Shown: positions 5,142 to 38,707, counted from the stretch's first letter. The stretch is DNA of 64,000 nucleotides from Acidimicrobiales bacterium (GCA_035536915.1 DATLNE010000031.1:62001-126000), one strand, 5' to 3'. Notes: a model not told the origin generated them from the sequence alone. Numbers and translations: made by a program.

Positions 5142-5405
5142 CCAGACCCGCACGGTGACGCCGTTGGGGGCGCCGTTGGGTGCTTCATGGCGGGTGTGGT
5201 CGCCGCCGAGGCCGAGCACCTGCGGCCACGGCGTCGGAACCACGCAGGTGCCCGCGGGCACCACGGTGATGTTCGACTGGCCGGCGCGGTGCACGGCGAC
5301 CTCCGCAGTCACGCAGTCGGCCGCCGCCGGACTGCTCGGCGCGAGCGCAGCAAGCAGCACGACGACGCCGAGGGCGACGCGCCATGTCAAGGCAATTCGG
5401 TTCAT
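5127..5405 (-). CDS. Small secreted protein, function unknown
   Basis: 92 residues. The N-terminus has a clear Sec signal peptide: basic MNRIALTWR, a hydrophobic VALGVVVLLAALAP core and an Ala-rich cleavage region (SPAAA-DC). The mature part is about 62 residues with two Cys that could form a disulfide. No family is recognised. It is convergent with, and overlaps by 15 bases, the sigma-factor gene. An overlapping plus-strand frame here is a shadow with atypical composition. Confidence 0.6.
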   Translation of the reverse strand: MNRIALTWRVALGVVVLLAALAPSSPAAADCVTAEVAVHRAGQSNITVVPAGTCVVPTPWPQVLGLGGDHTRHEAPNGAPNGVTVRVWLPVP

Positions 5406-5958: not shown

Positions 5959-6825
5959 ATGGCGACGGCCATGAGCGAATACGTCGTCATCACCGGCATG
6001 TCGGGCGCGGGGCGTTCGACGGCAGCCGACACCCTGGAGGACGCGGGCTGGTTCGTCATCGACAACCTGCCGCCGTCGCTCATCGGCAAGGTGGCCGAGC
6101 TCGTGGGGCGGCCCGACTCCGAGACCGAGCGGGTGGCGCTGGTCAGCGGGCGGGGCGGCGGCGAGTACGTGGCCGAGCTGTCGGAAGCCGTCGGCCACCT
6201 GCGCGAGTCGGGGGCCATCGTGCGGGTGCTGTTCCTCGACGCCGCCGACGACGTGCTGGTGCGGCGCTTCGAGAACACCAGGCGCCGCCACCCGCTGGCC
6301 ACCGAGGGCGTGTTCGCAGGCATCACCAAAGAGCGCGAAGTGCTGGAGGCCATCAAGACCCAGGCCGACATCGTGGTCGACACCAGCGACCTCAACGTCC
6401 ACCAACTGCGTGACCGGTTGCTCGACCTGTTCGAGCGCGACGAGCGCGGCCTCGGCATGCAGACCTCGGTGGTGTCGTTCGGCTACAAGCACGGCCTGCC
6501 CCTCGACGTGGACCTCGTGTTCGACTGCCGCTTCCTGCCCAACCCGCACTGGGTCGACGAGCTGCGCCCGTTGACCGGCCTCGACGAGCCGGTGCGCGAC
6601 TACGTGCTCGGCCAACCCGAGACCGACGACTTCCTCGAACGGCTCGACCACCTGCTGGAGCTCCTGCTGCCCGCCTACCGCAAGGAGGGCAAGGCCTACC
6701 TGTCGATAGCCGTGGGCTGCACGGGGGGCCGCCATCGCAGCGTGGTGCTGGCCGAGGAACTGGCCAAGCGGGTGGAAGCCCACGGGTTCAAGCCCTCTGT
6801 CTCGCACCGGGACGTGAACCGGTGA
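5959..6825 (+). CDS. rapZ: RNase adapter / nucleotide-binding protein RapZ (YvcJ)
   Basis: About 288 residues from ATG 5959; GTG 5953 and ATG 5971 are alternatives. The P-loop is GMSGAGRST, with Arg in place of the usual Lys, as in many actinobacterial members. The C-terminal domain carries VGCTGGRHRSVVLAEELA, the strongly conserved RapZ signature. In enterobacteria RapZ controls glucosamine-6-phosphate synthase through small RNA decay; in Gram-positives the YvcJ role is less clear. The stop overlaps the yvcK start by 4 bases, the usual gene order in actinobacteria. Confidence 0.95.
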   Translation: MATAMSEYVVITGMSGAGRSTAADTLEDAGWFVIDNLPPSLIGKVAELVGRPDSETERVALVSGRGGGEYVAELSEAVGHLRESGAIVRVLFLDAADDVLVRRFENTRRRHPLATEGVFAGITKEREVLEAIKTQADIVVDTSDLNVHQLRDRLLDLFERDERGLGMQTSVVSFGYKHGLPLDVDLVFDCRFLPNPHWVDELRPLTGLDEPVRDYVLGQPETDDFLERLDHLLELLLPAYRKEGKAYLSIAVGCTGGRHRSVVLAEELAKRVEAHGFKPSVSHRDVNR

Positions 6826-26615: not shown

Positions 26616-26640
26616 CGGTTCTCCGCCCATGGGAGAACCG
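26616..26640. promoter_or_regulatory. Palindromic operator candidate between SOD-like and ECF sigma genes
   Basis: CGGTTCTCC (26616-26624) and GGAGAACCG (26632-26640) are perfect 9-bp arms with a 7-base spacer. It sits in the 121-base divergent intergenic region, 30 bases before ATG 26671. The ATG at 26629 lies inside the palindrome, one reason to prefer the later start. Confidence 0.55.
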
Positions 26641-26670
26641 CTGAGGCCGCCCGGCGCGACAGTGAGGGTG

Positions 26671-27201
26671 ATGAGGACGGACGCGGAACTCCTGCTGGCG
26701 GTCGCCGACAACGACCGCGGCGCGTTTCGGGAGCTGCACGACCGCCACGTCCCCTGGGTGACTTCGCGCCTCGCCCGCCGCTGTGCCGATCATGAGGTGA
26801 TCGCCGAGGCCGTGCAGGACACCTTCGTCGCCATATGGAAAGGCGCGTCGAGGTGGGACGGGCGAGGCGAGCCCGCGGCCTGGATGTGGGGCATCGCCAT
26901 CCGCCGCCTCGTCGCCGTGTTGCGCACCCGCCAACGGTGGTCCCGGCCCCGCAGGCCGCTCGGCGCCCGGTCCGACGAGGTCGTCGTAGCGGCCGAAGAG
27001 CAGGTGTTGTACGGCGTGGAGCACGGCGATCTCGGGGGAGCCCTGCTGCGCCTGTCGCCCGAGCTACGGGTGGTCGTACAGGCAACGGTCCTCGACGGAC
27101 TGTCGACCCGCGAGGCCGCCCGCCTCCTGGGCATCCCCCAAGGAACCGTGAAGACGCGCATGATGCGCGCCCGCGCCGAGCTTCGAGGAGCGCTCGCATG
27201 A
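26671..27201 (+). CDS. ECF-family RNA polymerase sigma factor
   Basis: About 176 residues from ATG 26671; ATG 26629 would add 14 residues. Region 2 is seen as FRELHDRHVPWVTSRLARR and EAVQDTFVAIWKGASRWDG. Region 4 is LSPELRVVVQATVLDGLSTREAARLLGI followed by PQGTVKTRMMRARAEL. It overlaps the anti-sigma gene by 4 bases. Such factors usually drive their own operon plus a small regulon in response to an envelope signal; the divergent SOD-like gene may belong to it. Confidence 0.92.
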   Translation: MRTDAELLLAVADNDRGAFRELHDRHVPWVTSRLARRCADHEVIAEAVQDTFVAIWKGASRWDGRGEPAAWMWGIAIRRLVAVLRTRQRWSRPRRPLGARSDEVVVAAEEQVLYGVEHGDLGGALLRLSPELRVVVQATVLDGLSTREAARLLGIPQGTVKTRMMRARAELRGALA

Positions 27202-28043
27202 CCAACGCCACCTGGCACGCCACCCCCGCGGTACTGGCCCGGTTCGCCAACGATCCAACCGCCGTCGACGACGCAACCGCGGCATCGGTCGAGGTCCACC
27301 TCCTCTCCTGCGATCGCTGCCGGGCCGAGGTGGCGCGCCTCGCCGAGCCGGCGTCGACGGCAGCAAGCTGGGACGCGGTGGCCGATCGCATCGACCGGCC
27401 GCGGGTCCCCCTGCTGCAAGCGGTCCTCCAGCTTCTCGGCTTCCAGAGCGGCCCGGCCCGGCTGGCGGCGGCGACGCCCGGACTTCGCCTCTCCGGCCTC
27501 ACGGCAGTCGTGGGGCTTACTGCTCTCGCGGTGACGGCCGCCCGCCACCTCGACGCCGGAGGCCCCTTCCTCATGCTGGCCCCGCTCGCCCCGCTCGCCG
27601 GCGTCGTCCTCACCTTTGCCGCCGCCGCCGACCCCGCGGGCGAGAGCGGACTGGCCACCGCCATGCACGGTGCCGGCCTGGCGCTACGTCGGGCCACGGC
27701 CGTCCTCGTCCTGGCCTTCACCGTCCTCGCCATCGGAGCAATTGCGGTGCCCTCGTTGGGGTCGGCGCCGCTCGGATGGGTCCTTCCGGCCTGCGCCGTC
27801 GCCCTCGGCAGCCTTGCCCTCGGCACGTGGGTTCGCCTCGAAGCGGCCGTGGGCGCGCTTGCCGCCACCTGGGTGCTCGGGGTGGGCGCCGTCCGCTACA
27901 TCGACGGCTTCGACCGCCCCTTCGCCGACACAGTGTTCTTCACCCCGGCCGGGCAGGTGATCGCCCTCGCCCTCACCGTGGGGGCAGGCATCGTCTTGGC
28001 CGCCCGGGCCGATCGTTATTCGACCTTGGAGGCAAGGCTGTGA
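27198..28043 (+). CDS. Zinc-finger anti-sigma factor with multi-pass membrane domain
   Basis: 281 residues from ATG 27198. The N-terminal cytosolic part has the zf-HC2 pattern H34-x3-C38-x2-C41 (VEVHLLSCDRCRAEVARL), the mark of ZAS anti-sigma factors. After about residue 95 come some six hydrophobic segments, more than the single helix usual for this class. It is coupled by 4-base overlaps to the sigma gene upstream and the ABC ATPase downstream. It probably holds the sigma factor until a signal linked to the transporter is received. Confidence 0.88.
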   Translation: MTNATWHATPAVLARFANDPTAVDDATAASVEVHLLSCDRCRAEVARLAEPASTAASWDAVADRIDRPRVPLLQAVLQLLGFQSGPARLAAATPGLRLSGLTAVVGLTALAVTAARHLDAGGPFLMLAPLAPLAGVVLTFAAAADPAGESGLATAMHGAGLALRRATAVLVLAFTVLAIGAIAVPSLGSAPLGWVLPACAVALGSLALGTWVRLEAAVGALAATWVLGVGAVRYIDGFDRPFADTVFFTPAGQVIALALTVGAGIVLAARADRYSTLEARL

Positions 28044-28912
28044 ACGCATCTCTCGGCGTGTCCGTGACCGGGTTGCGCAAGCGCTTCGGCTCCACCGTCG
28101 CCCTCGACGGCGTCGACGCCGCCTTCGCCCCTGGGGTCAACGGCCTGCTCGGCCCCAACGGCGCCGGGAAGACCACGCTGCTGCGCATCCTCGCCACCGT
28201 CCTGCGCGCCGACGGCGGGACCGTCGATGCGTTCGGCCTCGACCCGTCGACAGGGAACGATCGCTTGGCGCTGCGGCGGCAGCTCGGGTACCTCCCGCAG
28301 GAACCCGGGTTCCACGATCACTTCACCGCCTTCGAGTTCGTGGACTACGTCGCCATCCTCAAGGAGTGGGCCGACCGCAAGGCCCGACACGACGAGGTGC
28401 GTCGAGTCCTCTCCCTCGTCGGCCTCGACGCGGTCATGCACAAGCGCATCCGCGAGCTTTCGGGAGGCATGCGCCGACGCTTGGCAATCGCCCAGTCGTT
28501 CATCGGGTGCCCGAAGCTCTTGGTCCTGGACGAGCCCACCGCCGGGCTCGACCCCGAGCAGCGACTCCGCTTCCGGGAGCTGCTCGGGACCCAAGCGGCG
28601 GGGGCCACGGTGTTGCTGTCGACGCATCAGACCGACGATGTCGCCGCCCTCTGCCAGCGAGTGGTCGTGCTCCTCGAAGGAAAGATCCGCTACGCCGGTG
28701 CCCCGACAGGACTGGCAGCGATGGCCGAAGGGCGGGTGTGGCTCGCACGAGATCGAGACGCCGGTGCACAGTTGGCGTGGATCGCCGCCGACGGACAGGT
28801 TCGCCACATCGGCGACCCACCGGCAGGGGCGCAGCTCGTCGAACCCACGGTCGAAGACGGTTACCTGCTGTTGGCGGGCCGGAGCGCCATCGAGCAAGCA
28901 AGCGCGGCGTGA
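28040..28912 (+). CDS. ABC transporter ATP-binding protein
   Basis: 290 residues, GTG start. Walker A is GPNGAGKTTL, the Q-loop area is LGYLPQEPGF, signature LSGGMRRRLAIAQS, and Walker B LLVLDEPTAGLDPEQ, followed by the switch His in STHQTDDV. The family is the ABC-2/drug-exporter type (CcmA-like). The last 80 residues are extra. It is coupled by 4-base overlap to the anti-sigma gene and to the membrane protein downstream, its likely permease. Confidence 0.93.
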   Translation: MNASLGVSVTGLRKRFGSTVALDGVDAAFAPGVNGLLGPNGAGKTTLLRILATVLRADGGTVDAFGLDPSTGNDRLALRRQLGYLPQEPGFHDHFTAFEFVDYVAILKEWADRKARHDEVRRVLSLVGLDAVMHKRIRELSGGMRRRLAIAQSFIGCPKLLVLDEPTAGLDPEQRLRFRELLGTQAAGATVLLSTHQTDDVAALCQRVVVLLEGKIRYAGAPTGLAAMAEGRVWLARDRDAGAQLAWIAADGQVRHIGDPPAGAQLVEPTVEDGYLLLAGRSAIEQASAA

Positions 28913-30693
28913 CCCAACGCCTCGTTCCCGTGCTGGCGGGCGTGTTGGCGACGACGGTCGTCGGCGGCGTCCTCACCGGTTCACTGGTGCTCCCGCTCGT
29001 CTCCGTCGGACCGATCGGGGCGCTCCTCTTGTACGCCGCCATCTCCGGCCGCCGGTCGGCGGTCGCCGAGCTGCCGTGGTCGCCGCCGGTGGTCGCCGCG
29101 CCGGTGCTCTGCACGCCCGGTAGCTCATGGCAGGTGGCGGCCGCCCTCGGCCGCGCCGAGTCGCGCCAACTCGCCGTCAGCCCGTGGTTCGGCGTCGCAC
29201 TCGGTTTCCTCGCCATCTTCCTCGTGATGTTCGGTGTCGTCTACGCCGGTGAAAACGGCGACGTCTGGCATCAGGCGGCCGCCATGACGCCGTGGTTCGC
29301 CCACCCCGTCGCCGGGATGACCATCCTCGCCGTACACCGGGCGGTGACGCGGCCTGTGCGAGACGGGTCGGACGAGCTGTTCAAGTCGTGCCCGACCGAG
29401 CCTGTCGTGCGCGCCATGGGACTCCTGCGCACTGCGATCGTGCCGGTCACGATCTTCGTCGGCTTCCTCGTCGTCTACGGGGTCGCTGTCGTGGTGGGCA
29501 GCCCCAACCTCCACGGCCCCGTCTCGATCAACACGCTGCCTCTCCTGCTGGCCGGGCCTGTGCTCGTGGCGGGCGCGGTGGGCCTTGGCGTCGCGCTGGG
29601 GTTGTGGGTGCGGTTCGGGCTGGCGCCGGTCGTCGCCGTCGTCGGTGTCGGCCTGCTCTCCCTCAAGCTGGCCACGGCGGGCGATCCGGGGTGGAACGGC
29701 TCGTCGGCGTTGTCGACCTTCGGCCCCGACAGCGGCTCGCCACTGCTCCATTCCCTGTCGCCCACCTGGTGGTACCTGCTGTGGCTGGTGGCGCTTGTCG
29801 CGCTCGTCGCCGTGGTGGCGATGGCGCGCTATCGACTCGACCGGCCGGTTCGCCTCGCCGCCGCCGTGGGCGTCGTGGTGGCCATGGTGGCCGCTTTGTT
29901 CGGCACGGCCGGCCCCGACGCCGAGACGGCTCGGCATGTCGCCGACCTCATCGCCCGGCCCGCGTCGCATCAGGCGTGCGACCGGGTCGGTGCGCTCGTC
30001 GACGTCTGCACGTACCGCGACTACAACGAGCTGCATGCGAGCATCGTGGCGGCGGTCGCTCCCGTGGCCCGGGCGCTCCCCGCTCGGGCGCAGCCGATCA
30101 CGCTGCGTCAGGGCTTCGGGGGCACCGAAGGCGACCTGCCCGTCGAGGTCCGCCGTCTGCTCCCGGCCGGGGTGCCTTCGCCCGGCGAGGGCGAGGTTGA
30201 AATCGGCTTTGCCTCTGCCGACAACGCCCTTCTCGAGTACCGGTTGCTCGTGGCGTTTGCCGCGCTTGGCCTTCGCTTACGGAGCGACGCCCTCGACCAC
30301 GGGCCGTTGGTGATCGCCGGCGAAGCGCGGGGGGTCGTCGCCTTGTGGCTCGCCGCCCGCGGCCTCGACCCGGGCGACGCCGTCGGCCTTGCCACGGTCG
30401 AGCAACCCGGCGTCTCCGACAACAACCTCCGCGGGGGCGCAGGATCGGACGCGTTCGAACTGGGCCTGGCCTGGCCCGAGATGTGCGGTCCCGTCGTGTG
30501 GGCGCCACAGGACCTTGCCGCGGCCCGGGCGCTGATGCGCGCCCCCGAGGCCGAGGTCGCGGCGATCGTCGATGCCGGGTTCGCCCGCTGGTCGCAGCCC
30601 ACGACCACGACCGACGACTTGCTGGCTGCGCTCGGCCTCCCGACGGTCGGCCCGGCCTCGAGGATCACCAGCCGAACCGAGAGCCACTGCTGA
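28909..30693 (+). CDS. Large ABC-exporter-type membrane protein with soluble C-terminal domain
   Basis: 594 residues from GTG 28909. The first ~345 residues contain about ten hydrophobic helices in ABC-2-permease style. The C-terminal ~250 residues are soluble (from about ETARHVADLIARPASHQ onward), with two Cys pairs and no recognised domain. It overlaps the ATPase gene by 4 bases, so it is likely the channel partner. The soluble part could face outside and handle the cargo or sense the signal. The frame also extends upstream into the ATPase gene but is shadow there. Confidence 0.75.
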   Translation: MTQRLVPVLAGVLATTVVGGVLTGSLVLPLVSVGPIGALLLYAAISGRRSAVAELPWSPPVVAAPVLCTPGSSWQVAAALGRAESRQLAVSPWFGVALGFLAIFLVMFGVVYAGENGDVWHQAAAMTPWFAHPVAGMTILAVHRAVTRPVRDGSDELFKSCPTEPVVRAMGLLRTAIVPVTIFVGFLVVYGVAVVVGSPNLHGPVSINTLPLLLAGPVLVAGAVGLGVALGLWVRFGLAPVVAVVGVGLLSLKLATAGDPGWNGSSALSTFGPDSGSPLLHSLSPTWWYLLWLVALVALVAVVAMARYRLDRPVRLAAAVGVVVAMVAALFGTAGPDAETARHVADLIARPASHQACDRVGALVDVCTYRDYNELHASIVAAVAPVARALPARAQPITLRQGFGGTEGDLPVEVRRLLPAGVPSPGEGEVEIGFASADNALLEYRLLVAFAALGLRLRSDALDHGPLVIAGEARGVVALWLAARGLDPGDAVGLATVEQPGVSDNNLRGGAGSDAFELGLAWPEMCGPVVWAPQDLAAARALMRAPEAEVAAIVDAGFARWSQPTTTTDDLLAALGLPTVGPASRITSRTESHC

Positions 30694-31304
30694 TGCCGAG
30701 CGTGTCGGTCCTGGCTCGCGCCGCGTGGCCGACTGCGAAGGCGGCGCACCTCGGCTCCACAGCCGCCACCGTCGCCCTGGCCGCCTTGCCTGCGGTGGTG
30801 ACGGTCGGACGTGGCGGCACCGAGGTGGGAACCGCCGTCGTGGCCCTCGTGCTCGGAGCCGGTGCCAGCCTGGCGTGGGCCGTCGACGATGCGGGCCGCG
30901 ACTCGCTGATCGCCATGCCCGTGAGCGCGCCCGTTCGCGCCGCGGTGCGGGTGCTCGCCGCCGCTGTCGTCGCCGCGCTCGTCACCGGCGCCGGACTCGG
31001 CGTCGTCGCTGCCGGCCCCGGCCTTCCCTCCGACCTCGCCGATCGCGTGCCCGAGGGCACGGCCGCCGCGGCCATCGCCCTGGCGGTGGCATTCGCTGCC
31101 GCTCGGCGCGGCGAGAGGACATCCGGCGCCACCGGCGTGAGCGTGGGGCTGCTCGTCCCCGTCGCAGTTGCCGCGCTCGCCATGCGATGGCCGAGCTCGT
31201 TTCCCACGTTCGGCTCCGGGCCGCTGCACAGTCGTTGGTGGCTTCTCGCTGCCGCCGGAGTGGTGGTGGTCACGCGCAGTGGACGAGATCCCGCCCGTCG
31301 CTAG
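30693..31304 (+). CDS. Multi-pass membrane protein, last gene of the ECF/ABC operon
   Basis: 203 residues, with an ATG overlapping the previous stop by one base. About six hydrophobic segments rich in Ala and Val are seen (VALAALPAVVTVG, AAVVAALVTGAGLGVVAAG and others). No family is recognised. Position suggests a second membrane subunit of the exporter. Confidence 0.72.
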   Translation: MPSVSVLARAAWPTAKAAHLGSTAATVALAALPAVVTVGRGGTEVGTAVVALVLGAGASLAWAVDDAGRDSLIAMPVSAPVRAAVRVLAAAVVAALVTGAGLGVVAAGPGLPSDLADRVPEGTAAAAIALAVAFAAARRGERTSGATGVSVGLLVPVAVAALAMRWPSSFPTFGSGPLHSRWWLLAAAGVVVVTRSGRDPARR

Positions 31305-32101: not shown

Positions 32102-32263
32102 ATGAATAGAAGATCCTCGAAGGGATCGGCGTCGTCGTCTTCGACGTTGTCCAGCGCCGACGGCCCCTGGGACCTGTTGGCCAACAGCACCGGCGCGCTC
32201 GCCACCGCGGTGGCACTCGAAGCGGTGAGGTGGCTCCACCGAGCGGCGTCCTCGGCGCGGTAG
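32102..32263 (+). CDS. Possible 53-residue small ORF upstream of lanB
   Basis: ATG 32102 to TAG 32263. The N-terminal half is Ser-rich and the second half is a likely amphipathic or weakly hydrophobic helix (DLLANSTGALATAVALEAVR). No Cys is present, so it is not a lanthipeptide precursor. No ribosome site is clear. It lies in the 290-base gap between the DHFR-like gene and lanB, on the lanB strand, where nothing else is seen. Confidence 0.3.
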   Translation: MNRRSSKGSASSSSTLSSADGPWDLLANSTGALATAVALEAVRWLHRAASSAR

Positions 32264-32298: not shown

Positions 32299-35283
32299 AT
32301 GGGCAGTGCGCTGCGGCCGAGCGGCTTCTTCGCCTTCCGCGCTCCGGCGCTGCCGTTGTCGACCCTCGTCGACTGGGCCGACGGCGTACAGGCACCCACG
32401 GCCGCTCCTGGCGATCTCGCTGCCGCCCTCGAGCGCGACCGCGCCCTGCTGCGGGGGCGCTTGGCCGCACTGGCCCAACGGCCGGAGATCGCCGACGCCG
32501 TGGCCTTGGCCTCCCCCGACCTCATGGACGCCGTTCGCCATCGGCCCGACGACCCCGGCACGATCGCTGCCTTCGTGCGGTACCTGGCGCGCATGGCCGC
32601 CCGCTGCACGCCCTTCGGCGCATTCGCGGGATGCGGAGTCGGAGTGGTGGGCGACCGCCTGGCGGTGCGGTTGGCTGCGCCCGACTCGTGGCAGCAGCAT
32701 CGCCGGCTCGACGGCGACTACCTCGACGCGTTGGCGCGGTCGCGGGTCGAGGCCCTGCGCCCCCGTATCACCGTGCGCCCCAACGACAGCCTCCATGCCG
32801 ACGTCGGTCGGTGGCGGTACGTGAGCACGCGGCCCGACGGCGACGAACGCAGCTTCACCCTGGTGGAGGTGGCCGACTCCGACCACCTCAGGCGCGCCCT
32901 GGATGCCTGCCGCCACGGCGCACCGCTCGACGCCGTGGTCGACGCGGTCGTCGGCGGCGGGGTGGAACGCGACCGGGCGGCGCGTTACGTCGACCAACTG
33001 CTCGACGCGCAGGTCGTCGTCGCCGAGTTGGCGGTGCGCGTCACCGGGGGCGACCCGGCCGCCACCCTGGCCGACGACCTCGAAGCACTGGGCGACGCCG
33101 AGACGGCCGCCACCGTGCGGAGCCTGGCCGACGACCCCAGCGTCTCCGCCCGCTCGATCCAAGTCGACACCGTCACCCCCGCCGACGAAGCGGTGCTGCC
33201 TCGTGCCGCCGTCGACGAGATCGCACGCGCCGTCGAGGTGTTGCGACGCATCGCGCCGGTACCCGCCGCCACTGCGTTCGACCGCTTCAAGGAGGCGTTC
33301 GCCGAACGGTACGAAGAAGCCGAGGTGCCGCTGCTCGACGCCCTCGACGAGGAGACGGGCATCGGCTTCGGCGCCGATGCCGACCCGGCGCCGTTGTTGC
33401 GCGACCTCCGTCTCCCGCCGTCGCCGAAACCGTCGGTCGCCTACGGCGCTCGTGAGGAAACCTTGTTGGCGCTGTTGCACCGCGCCTGGGCAACCGGCGC
33501 CTTGGAGGTGACGCTCGGCCCTGACGACGTCGAGGCCATGGCCCGCCCCGACGCCCTCCCGCTGCCCGCCGCACTGGCCGCAGTCGTCGTGCCCGCCCGC
33601 GTCGACGGCGGCGTGCAGTACGTGCTGCATGCTGCGGTCGGCCCGTCGGGTGCGCGCCTGCTCGGCCGCTTCTGCCACGCCGATCCCGCGCTCGAAGCGC
33701 ACGTGCGCGCCCATGTGGCCGACGAAGAAGCGCTCGACCCCGACGCCGTGTTCGCCGAGATCGTGCACCTGCCGTCGGGGCGCATGCTCAACGTGTCGGC
33801 TCGGCCCGTGCTGCGTGCCTACGAGGTCGAGTGGCTCGGTCGTTCCGGCGCGCCGCCCGAACGTCGCCTGGCCGCTGCCGACTTGCTGCTGTCCTTGCGC
33901 GGCGGCCGCTTCGTGCTGCGCTCGCGCTCGCTCGACTGCCGGGTCGTGCCGCGGCTCACCAATGCCCACAACGTCCATCGCCGGTCGCCCGGCGTCTACC
34001 GGTTCCTCGCCGCGCTCCAGGCCGACGGCGTGGCCGAGTGGACCAACTGGTCGTGGCAGCCCTTCGGGGGCGCGCCGTTCACGCCCAGGGTCAGGTGGGG
34101 CCAGGTCGTCCTGGCCCGAGCGCGGTGGTCGGCCACCGGCGGCGAGTTGCAGGCGCTCGACGGGTGGGAGGCGGTGCAGGCGTGGCGGGCCGAGCGGCGA
34201 CTTCCTCGCTGGGCCTGCCTGATCGAGGGCGACAACGTGTTGCCCTTCGACCTCGACAACGCGCTGAGCGTCGACGTGTTGGTGCGCGCCGCACGCCGCC
34301 GCGCCACCGCCACCTTCGAGGAGCTGTTCCCCGGCCCCGACGAGTTGGTGGCAACGGCAGCCGACGGCGATCGCGCCGTGGAACTGGTGATCCCCTTGGT
34401 GCAGTCGCAGCCCGTCGTCCCGGCCCCCGTGTCGCGGCCTGCGGCACCCGTGCGCCGGGTGTTCCCGCCGGGCTCGGAATGGAGCTACGTGAAGCTGCAC
34501 ACCGGTCCGGCCACGGCCGACCGCCTGCTGCGCGACCACGTGCGTCCGTTCGTGCGCGACCTGATGACATCGGGGCAGGCCGACTGCTGGTTCTTCGTGC
34601 GCTATGACAACCAGCTGCGCGTGCGTGCACGGGGTGCGTCCTTGGAACCGCTCGCCACTCGGGCCGTCGAAGAAGGGCTGGCCTCCGACGCCGAGGTGGC
34701 GACGTACCGGCGCGAGGTCGAGCGCTACGGCGGGCCCGAGGGCATCGCCATCGCCGAACAGGTCTTCCACGCCGACTCCGACGCCGCCGTCGACCTGCTC
34801 GCCTTGTTCGAGCCGGGCGCCCCTGGCCACGACGCCCGTTGGCGGATCGGTGTGTTCGGCACCGACATGTTGTTGCGCGACTTCGGCCTCGACGCTGCCG
34901 CCCGCACCCGTTTCGCCCGTCGCATGGAGAAGGCGTTCGAGCACGAGTTCAGAGCCGACGCCGCACTGCGCACCGCTGTGTCCGCCCGAGCGCGAGCCGA
35001 ACGCAACGCCGTCACCCTGCTGCTGGCCGCCACGCCCGACAGCGAGCATGCGTTGGCCCCGGGCATCGCCGTAGTGGCGGAACGATCGAGCCGCATCGCC
35101 CCGTTGGCGGCCCAGTTGCACGCCCTCGGCGCGCCCGTCGAGCAACTGGCGGAATCGTTCGTGCACATGTGGCTCGATCGCCTGTGCCGCTCGCAGAACC
35201 GGTTCCACGAATACGTCACCTATGCCCTGCTCGCCCGGATGGCCCGCAACACGAGCACGCCGCCGAAAACCGGTTCATACTGA
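32299..35283 (+). CDS. lanB: Class I lanthipeptide dehydratase LanB
   Basis: 994 residues from ATG 32299, normal for full-length LanB. The N-terminal glutamylation domain begins SGFFAFRAPALPLSTL and includes RCTPFGAFAG, a strongly conserved LanB segment. The C-terminal ~260 residues (from SEWSYVKLHTGPATADRLL) form the SpaB_C glutamate-elimination domain, including WFFVRYDNQLRVR and HMWLDRLCRSQNRFHEY. It uses glutamyl-tRNA to dehydrate Ser/Thr of the precursor. The two precursor genes begin 4 bases downstream, with lanC after them, so all four form one unit. Confidence 0.93.
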   Translation: MGSALRPSGFFAFRAPALPLSTLVDWADGVQAPTAAPGDLAAALERDRALLRGRLAALAQRPEIADAVALASPDLMDAVRHRPDDPGTIAAFVRYLARMAARCTPFGAFAGCGVGVVGDRLAVRLAAPDSWQQHRRLDGDYLDALARSRVEALRPRITVRPNDSLHADVGRWRYVSTRPDGDERSFTLVEVADSDHLRRALDACRHGAPLDAVVDAVVGGGVERDRAARYVDQLLDAQVVVAELAVRVTGGDPAATLADDLEALGDAETAATVRSLADDPSVSARSIQVDTVTPADEAVLPRAAVDEIARAVEVLRRIAPVPAATAFDRFKEAFAERYEEAEVPLLDALDEETGIGFGADADPAPLLRDLRLPPSPKPSVAYGAREETLLALLHRAWATGALEVTLGPDDVEAMARPDALPLPAALAAVVVPARVDGGVQYVLHAAVGPSGARLLGRFCHADPALEAHVRAHVADEEALDPDAVFAEIVHLPSGRMLNVSARPVLRAYEVEWLGRSGAPPERRLAAADLLLSLRGGRFVLRSRSLDCRVVPRLTNAHNVHRRSPGVYRFLAALQADGVAEWTNWSWQPFGGAPFTPRVRWGQVVLARARWSATGGELQALDGWEAVQAWRAERRLPRWACLIEGDNVLPFDLDNALSVDVLVRAARRRATATFEELFPGPDELVATAADGDRAVELVIPLVQSQPVVPAPVSRPAAPVRRVFPPGSEWSYVKLHTGPATADRLLRDHVRPFVRDLMTSGQADCWFFVRYDNQLRVRARGASLEPLATRAVEEGLASDAEVATYRREVERYGGPEGIAIAEQVFHADSDAAVDLLALFEPGAPGHDARWRIGVFGTDMLLRDFGLDAAARTRFARRMEKAFEHEFRADAALRTAVSARARAERNAVTLLLAATPDSEHALAPGIAVVAERSSRIAPLAAQLHALGAPVEQLAESFVHMWLDRLCRSQNRFHEYVTYALLARMARNTSTPPKTGSY

Positions 35284-35287
35284 CCCT

Positions 35288-35431
35288 ATGAGCGACGACC
35301 GGAACATCGACGAGGCCGACGATCTCGACCTGGTGCCCGACGCATTGAAGGACCTGACGGTGCCGGGCGAGGACGACGTGCGCGGGGGCGCCGCCACCCC
35401 CGGGAGAAACTGCGAGTGCGGGACGGCTTGA
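35288..35431 (+). CDS. Lanthipeptide precursor 1
   Basis: 47 residues from ATG 35288, 4 bases after lanB. The acidic leader has DLVPDALKDLTV and ends DDVRGG. The predicted 13-residue core is AATPGRNCECGTA (residues 35-47), with Thr 37 and Thr 46 as dehydration sites and Cys 42 and Cys 44 for rings. The TPGxxC spacing could give a methyllanthionine ring. Its stop shares one base with the next precursor's ATG. The identification rests on position, size, acidic leader, Gly-Gly and Thr/Cys core. Confidence 0.85.
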   Translation: MSDDRNIDEADDLDLVPDALKDLTVPGEDDVRGGAATPGRNCECGTA

Positions 35432-35583
35432 TGGGCGGCGACTCGCCGGAGGGGACCGGCGACCTCGACCGCGACCTCGTGCCTGATGCGCTCAAGGACC
35501 TGACGGTCTCGCCGGACGAGGGCGACGACGTCGCCGGCGGTGCCACCACGCCTGGCGGCGGCTGTTACGCCGGCACCTGGTGA
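35431..35583 (+). CDS. Lanthipeptide precursor 2
   Basis: 50 residues, ATG overlapping the previous stop (TGATG). The leader repeats DLVPDALKDLTV and ends DDVAGG. The predicted core is ATTPGGGCYAGTW (residues 38-50), also 13 residues, with Thr 39, 40, 49 and a single Cys 45. Compared with precursor 1 the motif A-x-T-P-G-x-x-C-x-x-G-T-x is kept. The shared leader shows that one LanB serves both. Two different products from one enzyme set, or a two-peptide product, are both possible. Confidence 0.85.
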   Translation: MGGDSPEGTGDLDRDLVPDALKDLTVSPDEGDDVAGGATTPGGGCYAGTW

Positions 35584-35602
35584 ACGCCCCGGCGTCGCCG
35601 GC

Positions 35603-36637
35603 GTGGAGGTAGTCGAGCCCTACCAGCACCTCGCCGGGTTGGGGCGCCCGCCTTTGCGTTCGTTCGGCCACGGGGCGGCAGGCGTGGCCTACGCGTTGTG
35701 GCGCTGCGCCACGCTGACGGGCGACGACGACGCAGGGCGGGCCGCCCTCGCCTGGGCGGCCGAAGCGCAGTCGGCCGTGCACGAGCCCGACGCCTTTGTC
35801 GGCCCGCCCCCGGTCTTCCCCGACGGGGCGTTCCCGTTGACGACGTCGTTGTACTTCGGCGAGGCCGGCGTGTGGTGCGTTTCCGCCTTGCTCGGAGCCG
35901 GCGGCGTCGAGCGCTTCGTCGACATCGCCGAGCGCTGTCCCGAGCAGTCCGTCGACGTGGTCGGCGGCGCCGCCGGGCTCCTCCTCGGGCTCGCCCTCCT
36001 CGTGGAGCAGCTCCACGCGCCCGCGGCTCGATCGGCAGGCGAACGACTGGTGGTTCGGTTGGCGCCGGCACCCACCTTGCCGTTGCTGGGCGCCGCCCAC
36101 GGGCGGGCGGGCATCGTCCACGCCCGGTTGCGGTGGTGCCAGGCGACGGGGGCGCAACCCGACGAGCACGTGCGCGACGAGCTCGGCCGGCTGTTGGCCG
36201 CCGAGGTGGGCAAAGGACGATGGCCCCGCCGCTCCGACACCGACGAGGCATGGCCCGGGTGGTGCCACGGCAGCGCCGGGTGGGCACAGCTGTGGACCTT
36301 GGCCGCCGAGGTCACCGGTGACGACTCGTTCGTGGCACCCGCCGAACGAGCCGCCGCCTACGCGCTCGCCCACGGCGGCGGAGGAGCGAGCCTGTGCTGC
36401 GGCGCCGGCGGCCATGCCTACGCCGCCCTCGCCGTCTACCGGGCCACCGGGGAGCGGGCGTGGTTGGCGCAGGCCCACCGCGCTGCCGAGCGGGCTGCGG
36501 TCGAACCGGCCGGCGATCGGTTCCCTGAGCACAGCCTGTGGGGTGGGACCCTCGGTGCGTCGCTCCTGGCCGTCGAGCTCGCCTACCCCGACGCAGCGGC
36601 ACTGCCGCTGTACCGCAGCCTCAGGCCGTCCTCGTAG
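35603..36637 (+). CDS. lanC: Lanthipeptide cyclase LanC
   Basis: About 344 residues from GTG 35603; GTG 35540 would overlap precursor 2 and add 21 residues. Conserved LanC features are SFGHGAAGVAYAL, LGAAHGRAGIVHA, WCHGSAGWA and SLCCGAGGHAYA. Zinc ligands would be Cys 221 (in WCHG) and Cys 265-Cys 266 (in CCG), where most LanC have Cys-His. It adds precursor Cys thiols to dehydrated residues to form thioether rings. No ribosome site is strong, so translation may be coupled to the precursors. Confidence 0.93.
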   Translation: MEVVEPYQHLAGLGRPPLRSFGHGAAGVAYALWRCATLTGDDDAGRAALAWAAEAQSAVHEPDAFVGPPPVFPDGAFPLTTSLYFGEAGVWCVSALLGAGGVERFVDIAERCPEQSVDVVGGAAGLLLGLALLVEQLHAPAARSAGERLVVRLAPAPTLPLLGAAHGRAGIVHARLRWCQATGAQPDEHVRDELGRLLAAEVGKGRWPRRSDTDEAWPGWCHGSAGWAQLWTLAAEVTGDDSFVAPAERAAAYALAHGGGGASLCCGAGGHAYAALAVYRATGERAWLAQAHRAAERAAVEPAGDRFPEHSLWGGTLGASLLAVELAYPDAAALPLYRSLRPSS

Positions 36638-36832: not shown

Positions 36833-38707
36833 CTACACGGCGGGCGACGGTGACCACCTGACGGCCGGTCCCTCGCTGCCGAAGAACCGCCGTCGGATGC
36901 GCTCGCGCAGAGGACCACCGGTGCGGGCGGCGTCGTGCGCCGCTAGTCGCACCTCTCGCCGCTGCAGCCGCTCTTCCATGATCGTCGCCAACTCGTCGAG
37001 CCACTCCGGGTGCGCCTGCAGAAGCGGCTGGTACTGGCGGAAGCCGATCTCCAGCACCAGTGCCCCGCCGACGGCGCGCACGGTGGCGCTGCGCCGTTCG
37101 CCGGTCAGCAACGACATCTCGCCCACCACCGCGCCGCGCCCCATCGTCTCCACCAGCACGTCGTCGCCGTCGTCGCGCCGCAGGAGGATCTCGACCTCGC
37201 CGTCGCCGACGACGAACAGCGAGTCGCCCGCGTCGCCTTGCACCACAAACCGCTCGGTCGGGCCCAGCAACAAGGGCCGCACGGCGGCGGCCAGGTCGCG
37301 CAAGTCGTCAGGGGAGAGCATGCGCAGGATGGCCACCTCGGTGAGCAGCGCCTCGATCTCCGCAGTGGTGGGCGTCGTCTGGTCGACGGGCTCCGTCACG
37401 TCGAGGCGCTCGCTGTAGCCGTCGCGCCGCTGCAGGACGGCAACGCCCTCGGGGCGGTGCATGTGGGCCTCCAGCAGGCTCACCTGCACGGGCACGCTCT
37501 CATCGCCCGCGTGGTCCATGAGGCCACGGACTTTGGCCCACTCCGCCACCGCGTTCATCGACGCCCGGTACTGGTGGCACGCGGTGGCGTAGAGCCCCTC
37601 GTGGCCGGCGACCGACCACCGCTGCCACAGGACCCGCTCGCGCACCGAACGGGGGAAGAAGCCGAGCTCGGGGAAGGCGGCCGCCGTTTGGCGCAGCACG
37701 GCCCGCTCGGCGTCGCGGAACACCCGTTGCCAGGTCTCCTGGGCGTTGTGGTGGTTGGCCCCCGCCAGTTCGATGGCGTGCTTGAGGTCGTCGTGGTGCA
37801 CGTGGAGGAACTGCAACGTCGCCCGCTTCTTCTGGAGCAGGTTCATGGCCGACACCGGTCCCGTGCGCGGTCGGCCCATCCGGGGGAACTCGATGGTGCG
37901 CAACGCCCACACGCGCCGCCAGGCGTCGGGGTCGAGGCGGCCTCGGATGTCGCGGTACGCCTCGTTCGTCTCGAAGGCGGCGCGCTCGGCGGGGTCGAGC
38001 AGGTCGCCTGCTTCGTCGCGCACCGCTTCGAACACGCCGAGGCACGTGAGCAGTTCGAGGTAAACGCCCACCCGCAACAACCAGGCGGGGTCGGTGAGGT
38101 GGCGCTGCTTGCCGACGATGTCGGCGACGAGGGCGCGGGTGTAGAGCGCGGCCTTGTCGCCCCCGATGCGCAGGACGGGGAACCACGGGTGGTACTCCAC
38201 GCCCGGGTCGTCCACGCCCGCGGCGGCGGCTTGGCGGGCGGTGTCGGCGGTCAGCAGCCGCTCGATGATGCGTTCGTACAGCAGCCCCAGCCGGCTCACC
38301 TCGCACAGGTCGAGCGCGGTGGCGTCGGCTGCCACCTCGTGGCCGTCGCGGACGACGCGCACTCGCACATGCACCTGTTGCAGAAAGCCCACTGAGAAGC
38401 CGAGGTCGACGCCGGCCATGTCGTCGTCGGGCGCCACCGTGAGGCGATGGCGTCCGTCGCTGTCGACGGCGAGCGGCCGGTGGTGCCAGCCGGGCACTGG
38501 CCTGCCGCCCACTTCCACGGTGGCGTCGACGTCGTCGCCCGACGCCAACCCGGCCACGTCGAAGAGGACGATGGCCTGGTTCGAGCCGTCGGCCGCGCCC
38601 GTCACCAACGCTGCGCAGTCGCTGGAACCGAGCCCTGGGTGCATGGCTTCGTCGGTGGGCCGCCGTCCGGGCACGAAGCGCACGATCCGGCACGTCGTCG
38701 CGTTCAC
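36833..38707 (-). CDS. Cyclic-nucleotide-binding-domain protein with large uncharacterised N-terminal region
   Basis: 624 residues from GTG 38707; ATG 38644 is an alternative. The last ~150 residues are a cNMP-binding domain (VQGDAGDSLFVVGDGEVEIL, then GAVVGEMSLLTGERRSATVRA, the phosphate-binding cassette). The N-terminal ~460 residues are helical after residue 130 (LLQKKRATLQFLHVHHDDL, ANHHNAQETWQRVFRDAE) and match no family I recognise. It is divergent from the acyl-CoA-dehydrogenase-like gene with only 20 bases between starts. Confidence 0.78.
   Translation of the reverse strand: MNATTCRIVRFVPGRRPTDEAMHPGLGSSDCAALVTGAADGSNQAIVLFDVAGLASGDDVDATVEVGGRPVPGWHHRPLAVDSDGRHRLTVAPDDDMAGVDLGFSVGFLQQVHVRVRVVRDGHEVAADATALDLCEVSRLGLLYERIIERLLTADTARQAAAAGVDDPGVEYHPWFPVLRIGGDKAALYTRALVADIVGKQRHLTDPAWLLRVGVYLELLTCLGVFEAVRDEAGDLLDPAERAAFETNEAYRDIRGRLDPDAWRRVWALRTIEFPRMGRPRTGPVSAMNLLQKKRATLQFLHVHHDDLKHAIELAGANHHNAQETWQRVFRDAERAVLRQTAAAFPELGFFPRSVRERVLWQRWSVAGHEGLYATACHQYRASMNAVAEWAKVRGLMDHAGDESVPVQVSLLEAHMHRPEGVAVLQRRDGYSERLDVTEPVDQTTPTTAEIEALLTEVAILRMLSPDDLRDLAAAVRPLLLGPTERFVVQGDAGDSLFVVGDGEVEILLRRDDGDDVLVETMGRGAVVGEMSLLTGERRSATVRAVGGALVLEIGFRQYQPLLQAHPEWLDELATIMEERLQRREVRLAAHDAARTGGPLRERIRRRFFGSEGPAVRWSPSPAV

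Follow-up and report, generated by a model that had tools for sequence, protein, structure and literature searches.

Does a compact lanthipeptide cluster act only on the peptides encoded beside it, or can its enzymes serve precursors that are scattered over the genome? The question is raised by positions 32299–36637 of a 64,000-nucleotide stretch of DNA (the window) from an Acidimicrobiales bacterium (GCA_035536915.1, DATLNE010000031.1:62001-126000), which carry, in this order and on the plus strand, lanB, precursor 1, precursor 2 and lanC. The source genome (G000; 3.2 Mb in 54 contigs, 99.5% complete, 0.58% contamination) holds one PF14028 protein, one PF05147 protein, which is its only LANC_like protein, and one PF03412 protein. 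The gene content, the enzyme families, the common leader of the precursors and the single copy of each enzyme can be read directly from this DNA. Our answer is that one class I machine probably turns dispersed precursors into small lanthipeptides, most of them with a single ring, by means of a LanB and an exchanged cyclase with a Cys-Cys-Gly (CCG) zinc site. This is a real cluster of a known kind, class I, and by its predicted products and parts an unusual one: it pairs a LanB with a three-Cys cyclase (B-CCC), its cores are minimal, and some of its precursors and its exporter are unlinked.

Enzymes and precursors of the cluster

LanB matches PF04738 (E 5.9e-130) and PF14028 (E 2e-51) across the whole protein, representing the glutamylation and elimination domains. 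Its best sequence match in the PDB is MibB (5ehk, E 1.2e-33), followed by NisB. The presence of the elimination domain rules out a split-LanB amino-acid ligase of the peptide aminoacyl-tRNA ligase (PEARL) type. R774/R776 and R809 are conserved and align with the elimination residues R784/R786 and R826 of NisB, and His956, which lies in an SFVHM stretch and is invariant in a three-sequence alignment, may be the equivalent of NisB His961. A three-sequence LanB profile found 51 loci; a scan of genome contigs with a single LanB sequence gave no match. In a tree of 49 LanBs, the window LanB falls within an all-actinobacterial group of nine (support 96) together with LanBs that are associated with precursor arrays.

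LanC matches PF05147 (E 2.2e-26) and was modeled with AlphaFold2 to a mean predicted local distance difference test score (pLDDT) of 80.5. In the alignment, it keeps the invariant Asp118, His166, Cys221 and Cys265 columns, while His266 is replaced by Cys. His occupies this column in all nine LanCs encoded beside related LanBs; Cys is found there also in L024, L025 and L092. In two trees, of 27 and 33 sequences, the window LanC and that of another genome of the order, G277 (51% identity), form a clade with kinase-fused cyclases at a support of 100/100 (G690 in both trees, G018 in the larger one), and a long branch parts the window and G277 proteins from all the Cys-His-Gly (CHG) LanCs beside related LanBs. 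Together, the CCG site and the trees indicate that dehydratase and cyclase differ in history, a class I LanB being combined with a CCG cyclase. The cluster has the separate LanC-type cyclase of class I, and this cyclase stands outside the CHG lineage that is typical of the class, though not strictly defining; because of the LCCG motif and the 100/100 grouping, we class the cluster as a class I variant. The first-pass annotation had called it simply a class I lanthipeptide cluster, which is largely correct though incomplete: it holds for LanB, a full-length class I dehydratase, and fails for LanC, which lies outside the class I lineage.

The G690 CCG LanC was considered as a possible LanM and dropped, since the protein is kinase-fused. 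It is encoded at 5148–8713 of L025, preceded by a protein that resembles HopA1-type lyases by eye; the locus may represent a class IV/V-like synthetase in split form whose cyclase has three Cys. The G018 CCG LanC is also kinase-fused (the kinase was read by eye), and no precursor or LanB was found near it. Plasmids searched for LanC yielded no match.

Both precursors have the leader and the Ser/Thr- and Cys-containing core of a class I lanthipeptide, and a profile search of the genome recovered them at E 3.8e-21 (precursor 1) and E 6.8e-19 (precursor 2); neither has a matching model in Pfam or NCBIfam. The two DNA copies of the 12-residue leader motif differ at 7 of 36 bases, and every change is synonymous, which argues that the peptide sequence of the leader is under selection and that the pair is not due to chance. 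The leader of precursor 1 is common to five other precursors. For class I precursors from Bacteroidetes, Walker et al. (PMC7268733) describe a leader of the form LxLxKx5L with a Gly-Gly (GG) end, frequently accompanied by a C39 protease. The window leader, L-D-L-V-P-D-A-L-K-D-L...GG, fits this spacing and has the GG end, with Pro at the Lys position, and we therefore regard it as a probable variant of that known type. Both cores fit A-x-T-P-G-x-x-C-x-x-G-T-x, confirming the common leader and core pattern seen at first pass. We found no description of this core pattern in the literature searched, and it had likewise gone unrecognized at first pass. The G277 core, of 13 residues and in the same leader register, lacks the PG, which widens the pattern to A-x-T-x4-C-x2-G-T-x. 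Precursor 2, with its single Cys, had been expected to form only one ring. The sequence supports this and extends it to precursor 1: although this peptide has two Cys, just a single Thr precedes a Cys in it, so that no more than one ring in the usual direction is predicted.

The genes are tightly packed (Table 1). A 4-base gap separates the lanB stop from precursor 1, and the ATG of precursor 2 shares one base with the precursor 1 stop (TGATG). Open reading frames and Pfam matches agree with the four-gene arrangement first described, with its first gaps of at most 4 bases. The LanC start is ambiguous, being either GTG 35540, inside and overlapping precursor 2, or GTG 35603.

Table 1. Features of the cluster, numbered from the first base of the window. 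Cores are predicted.
Feature	Position	Strand	Description
LanB	32299..35283	+	ATG start, 994 aa; in-frame GTG at 32230 is an alternative start
Precursor 1	35288..35431	+	47 aa, MSDDRNIDEADDLDLVPDALKDLTVPGEDDVRGGAATPGRNCECGTA; core AATPGRNCECGTA after GG
Leader motif DLVPDALKDLTV, precursor 1	35327..35362	+	Same peptide as in precursor 2, 7 synonymous base differences
Predicted core 1, AATPGRNCECGTA	35390..35428	+	After GG (putative cleavage site); Thr3, Cys8, Cys10, Thr12
Precursor 2	35431..35583	+	50 aa, MGGDSPEGTGDLDRDLVPDALKDLTVSPDEGDDVAGGATTPGGGCYAGTW; core ATTPGGGCYAGTW
Leader motif DLVPDALKDLTV, precursor 2	35473..35508	+
Predicted core 2, ATTPGGGCYAGTW	35542..35580	+	After GG; Thr2/Thr3, single Cys8, Thr12
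LanC	35603..36637	+	Stand-alone cyclase, 344 aa counted from GTG 35603
LanC first zinc motif, W-C-H-G (Cys221)	36260..36271	+	Cys column invariant in the alignment
LanC second zinc motif, L-C-C-G (Cys265-Cys266)	36392..36403	+	CCG replaces the usual CHG

Precursors, exporter and relatives outside the window

The precursor profile has exactly five matches in the genome, two in the window and three on contig C3; weaker matches on contigs C14 and C44 were rejected, as they lie within ordinary reading frames. The C3 precursors stand in tandem at 110891–111288 on the minus strand. Their cores, GGNTSGRCM, FRSMGCQL and FRSAGCYF, have 8–9 residues and contain S/T-x-x-C in all three cases. Directly downstream lies a gene for a ferritin-like protein (L007, 10904–11842, minus strand; PF03405 match below cut-off), possibly an extra modifying enzyme.

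The C39 exporter of the genome is encoded on contig C17, unlinked to the cluster, and combines two cyclic nucleotide monophosphate (cNMP)-binding domains, a C39 peptidase and an ATP-binding cassette (ABC) exporter. It supplies the peptidase that goes with the LxLxKx5L-GG type of leader. ABC genes at 28040–30690 of the window were rejected as the cluster's exporter because they have no C39 domain, and for this reason the unlinked exporter is preferred. The cluster is not self-contained: the single exporter of the genome that would cleave at GG, and three further precursors, are on other contigs.

Beside the C17 exporter are two tandem GG-leader peptides (L079, 6796–7025, minus strand) with the cores RRADPCEGGE and RLAVGDPCDGGE, which have one Cys and no Ser/Thr. 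They adjoin a small protein (6360–6821, minus strand) that resembles a 2-oxoglutarate oxygenase by eye and has no Pfam match, and the locus possibly belongs to another type of ribosomally synthesized and post-translationally modified peptide (RiPP). These peptides share the leader end, whereas the P-x-x-L/I-K-D-L segment, present in the C3 leaders, is missing from them. The comparison suggests that LanB recognizes this segment and the exporter recognizes the leader end.

Relatives are rare in the order: among about 300 of its genomes, the precursor profile was found only in G000 and G277, and LanC only in these two and in the kinase-fused form of G018. In G277, which belongs to another family, a precursor ending in ...AVRGG-ATTRVRACYCGTI directly precedes the CCG LanC, on whose far side lies a gene for an ABC exporter; the retention of precursor and CCG LanC side by side supports their pairing. 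Two further LanBs of the order, in G009 and G066, were rejected as sister clusters, as no matching precursor was found near either; the G066 locus is taken to be of another RiPP type because YcaO-like and ThiF-like genes (recognized by eye) adjoin it.

Arrays of about 6–11 precursors with such leaders surround a LanB at L035 and in three Nitriliruptoraceae metagenome-assembled genomes (L050, L057 and L061). A CHG LanC is present at all of these except L050, and all four loci have an exporter, to which the C17 exporter is similar at >1100 bits. The core TTFNCPTSH is identical in the three Nitriliruptoraceae loci, and most other cores differ. Over all loci (41 precursors, counting the window, C3 and G277 as well as a single acidobacterial locus), 30 precursors contain exactly one Cys, and in 36 a Ser/Thr precedes the first Cys. 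When the C3 and array cores were collapsed by hand to 27 distinct sequences by merging near-identical ones, 20 of them had Ser/Thr at the position two residues ahead of the first Cys, compared to a mean of 4.6 and a maximum of 13 in 20,000 shuffles.

Several other features lie around the cluster in the window. Upstream, at 26629–31304 on the plus strand, stands a row of genes for an extracytoplasmic function (ECF) sigma factor, a putative anti-sigma factor, an ABC ATPase, a large membrane permease and one further membrane protein. Downstream, a protein of 605–624 aa (36833–38707, minus strand) has a C-terminal cNMP-binding domain and a weak similarity, below cut-off, to TIGR03896 (bacteriocin transport-associated). 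ARAGORN called a tRNA-Pro(cgg) at 37913–37985 on the plus strand, inside this reading frame; Rfam gave no call, and the ARAGORN call is probably a false positive.

Mechanism and alternative readings

In the proposed pathway, LanB would recognize the common leader segment L-D-L-x-P-x-x-L/I-K-D-L and dehydrate Thr/Ser of the short cores by tRNA-Glu-dependent glutamylation followed by elimination. The stand-alone CCG LanC would then form a single thioether ring, with Thr3-Cys8 as the most likely bridge in both window cores (for core 2, from Thr2 or Thr3), and the C17 exporter would cut after the DDVxGG end and export the ringed peptide. The same LanB/LanC pair would also process the three C3 precursors in trans, with a Ser/Thr-x-x-Cys ring. 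From sequence, then, we infer the ring pattern, the processing in trans, the GG cleavage and the role of the CCG site. That the products are a small secreted signal or a bacteriocin-like peptide is a guess.

Several observations weigh against this pathway. The C3 peptides, encoded next to the ferritin-like gene, might be products of a different pathway; contigs C3, C17 and C31 are joined to one organism by the assembly (0.58% contamination); no LanB was detected in G277, an assembly that is 85% complete; the window cores have S/T-x4-C and those of the arrays S/T-x-x-C; and the LanB loop ahead of R774 is shortened to DN, where relatives have DPxxH.

Some of these points would suit a conventional class I cluster with two precursors that acts on these two alone, the C3 peptides being made by a separate pathway and sharing only the exporter, and hence the leader end. 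The neighboring ferritin-like gene, with its weak PF03405 match, would provide a start for such a pathway, the C3 cores do not have the length or the ring spacing of those in the window, and the C17 peptides show that the same leader end can be carried by cores with no Ser/Thr. However, the segment missing from the C17 peptides is kept in the C3 leaders, the three C3 cores all have the spacing of the LanB-linked arrays, and the genome has no second LanB or LanC. We consider a cluster restricted to its own precursors unlikely, although it is the strongest of the alternatives.

A different outcome would be that LanB dehydrates and LanC closes no ring, yielding a linear dehydrated product or one to which another thiol is added. 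Eukaryotic LanCL proteins add glutathione, and LanCL2 and LanCL1 are the best PDB folds for the LanC model, ahead of CuvL, MadC and NisC; moreover, some precursors of the related arrays have no Cys, or no Ser/Thr ahead of it. Sequence and tree, on the other hand, place LanC with bacterial kinase-fused synthetases, a precursor adjoins it in both G000 and G277, and a Cys downstream of Ser/Thr is kept in nearly all cores, making the formation of no ring improbable.

We give equally little credence to an antibacterial two-component lantibiotic, which would account for the presence, in one operon, of two precursors that share a leader and for a TPG resembling TPGC, the ring B motif of nisin, but the cores are alike, with no distinct alpha and beta, no dedicated immunity gene or lantibiotic regulator is found nearby, and the lipid II motif is incomplete (ring TPGxxC, not TPGC), with the PG absent in G277. 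The motif SxxxCTP(G/S)C is given in PMC7268733.

Comparison with known systems

The proposed processing of scattered precursors by one LanB and one CCG cyclase invites comparison on several sides. According to a 2024 survey (PMC11251773), no single-Cys (methyl)lanthionine peptide had been experimentally defined, and the locus offers a compact four-gene test both of such a peptide and of the joint action of a LanB and a CCG cyclase. The CCG LanMs, ProcM and SyncM among them, are known for a wide substrate range (PMC10027976); because the CCG cyclase is paired here with an unrelated dehydratase, one may ask whether substrate tolerance goes with the CCG site rather than with the LanM architecture. 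The related precursor arrays are ready natural libraries of one-ring peptides.

The class I systems with LxLxKx5L...GG leaders (Bacteroidetes type, PMC7268733) likewise have a full-length LanB, an L-x-L-x-x-x5-L leader with Gly-Gly and a C39-type exporter in the genome. The present system differs in having Pro for Lys, an actinomycetotal host (Actinomycetota), a CCG rather than a CHG cyclase, cores of 8–13 residues with mostly one Cys, and an unlinked exporter.

The prochlorosins with ProcM, and SyncM (class II, CCG LanM; PMC10027976, PMC10783134), share the CCG site, a conserved leader joined to variable cores, the spread of precursors over the genome (three of five being on C3 here) and cleavage at GG, which is predicted in our case. 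The CCG zinc motif of the ProcM system is present, while a LanM with its own dehydratase domain is absent: those systems have a LanM with a kinase-type dehydratase, whereas here a LanB would use glutamyl-tRNA and LanC is a separate protein of 344 aa. Their leader is of the Nif11 type, in contrast to the LxLx...KDL leader and only five precursors found here. That the system is a class I counterpart of the prochlorosins, in which a LanB and a CCG cyclase from the kinase-fused lineage act in trans on leader-matched precursors from several loci to give one-ring lanthipeptides of 8–13 residues, as part of a wider actinobacterial group of array-associated LanBs, is an extension that we hold no more firmly than its opposite.

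The nearest relatives of the cyclase, in the 100/100 clade, are the class IV or kinase-fused CCG synthetases (L025 in G690, L092 in G018), in which cyclase and protein kinase domain form one polypeptide, in contrast to the free-standing cyclase next to LanB in the window. The B-CCC class of the 2024 survey (PMC11251773), a LanB with a three-Cys cyclase, is exactly the combination seen in the window, and comprises there only two computationally predicted peptides, neither of them characterized.

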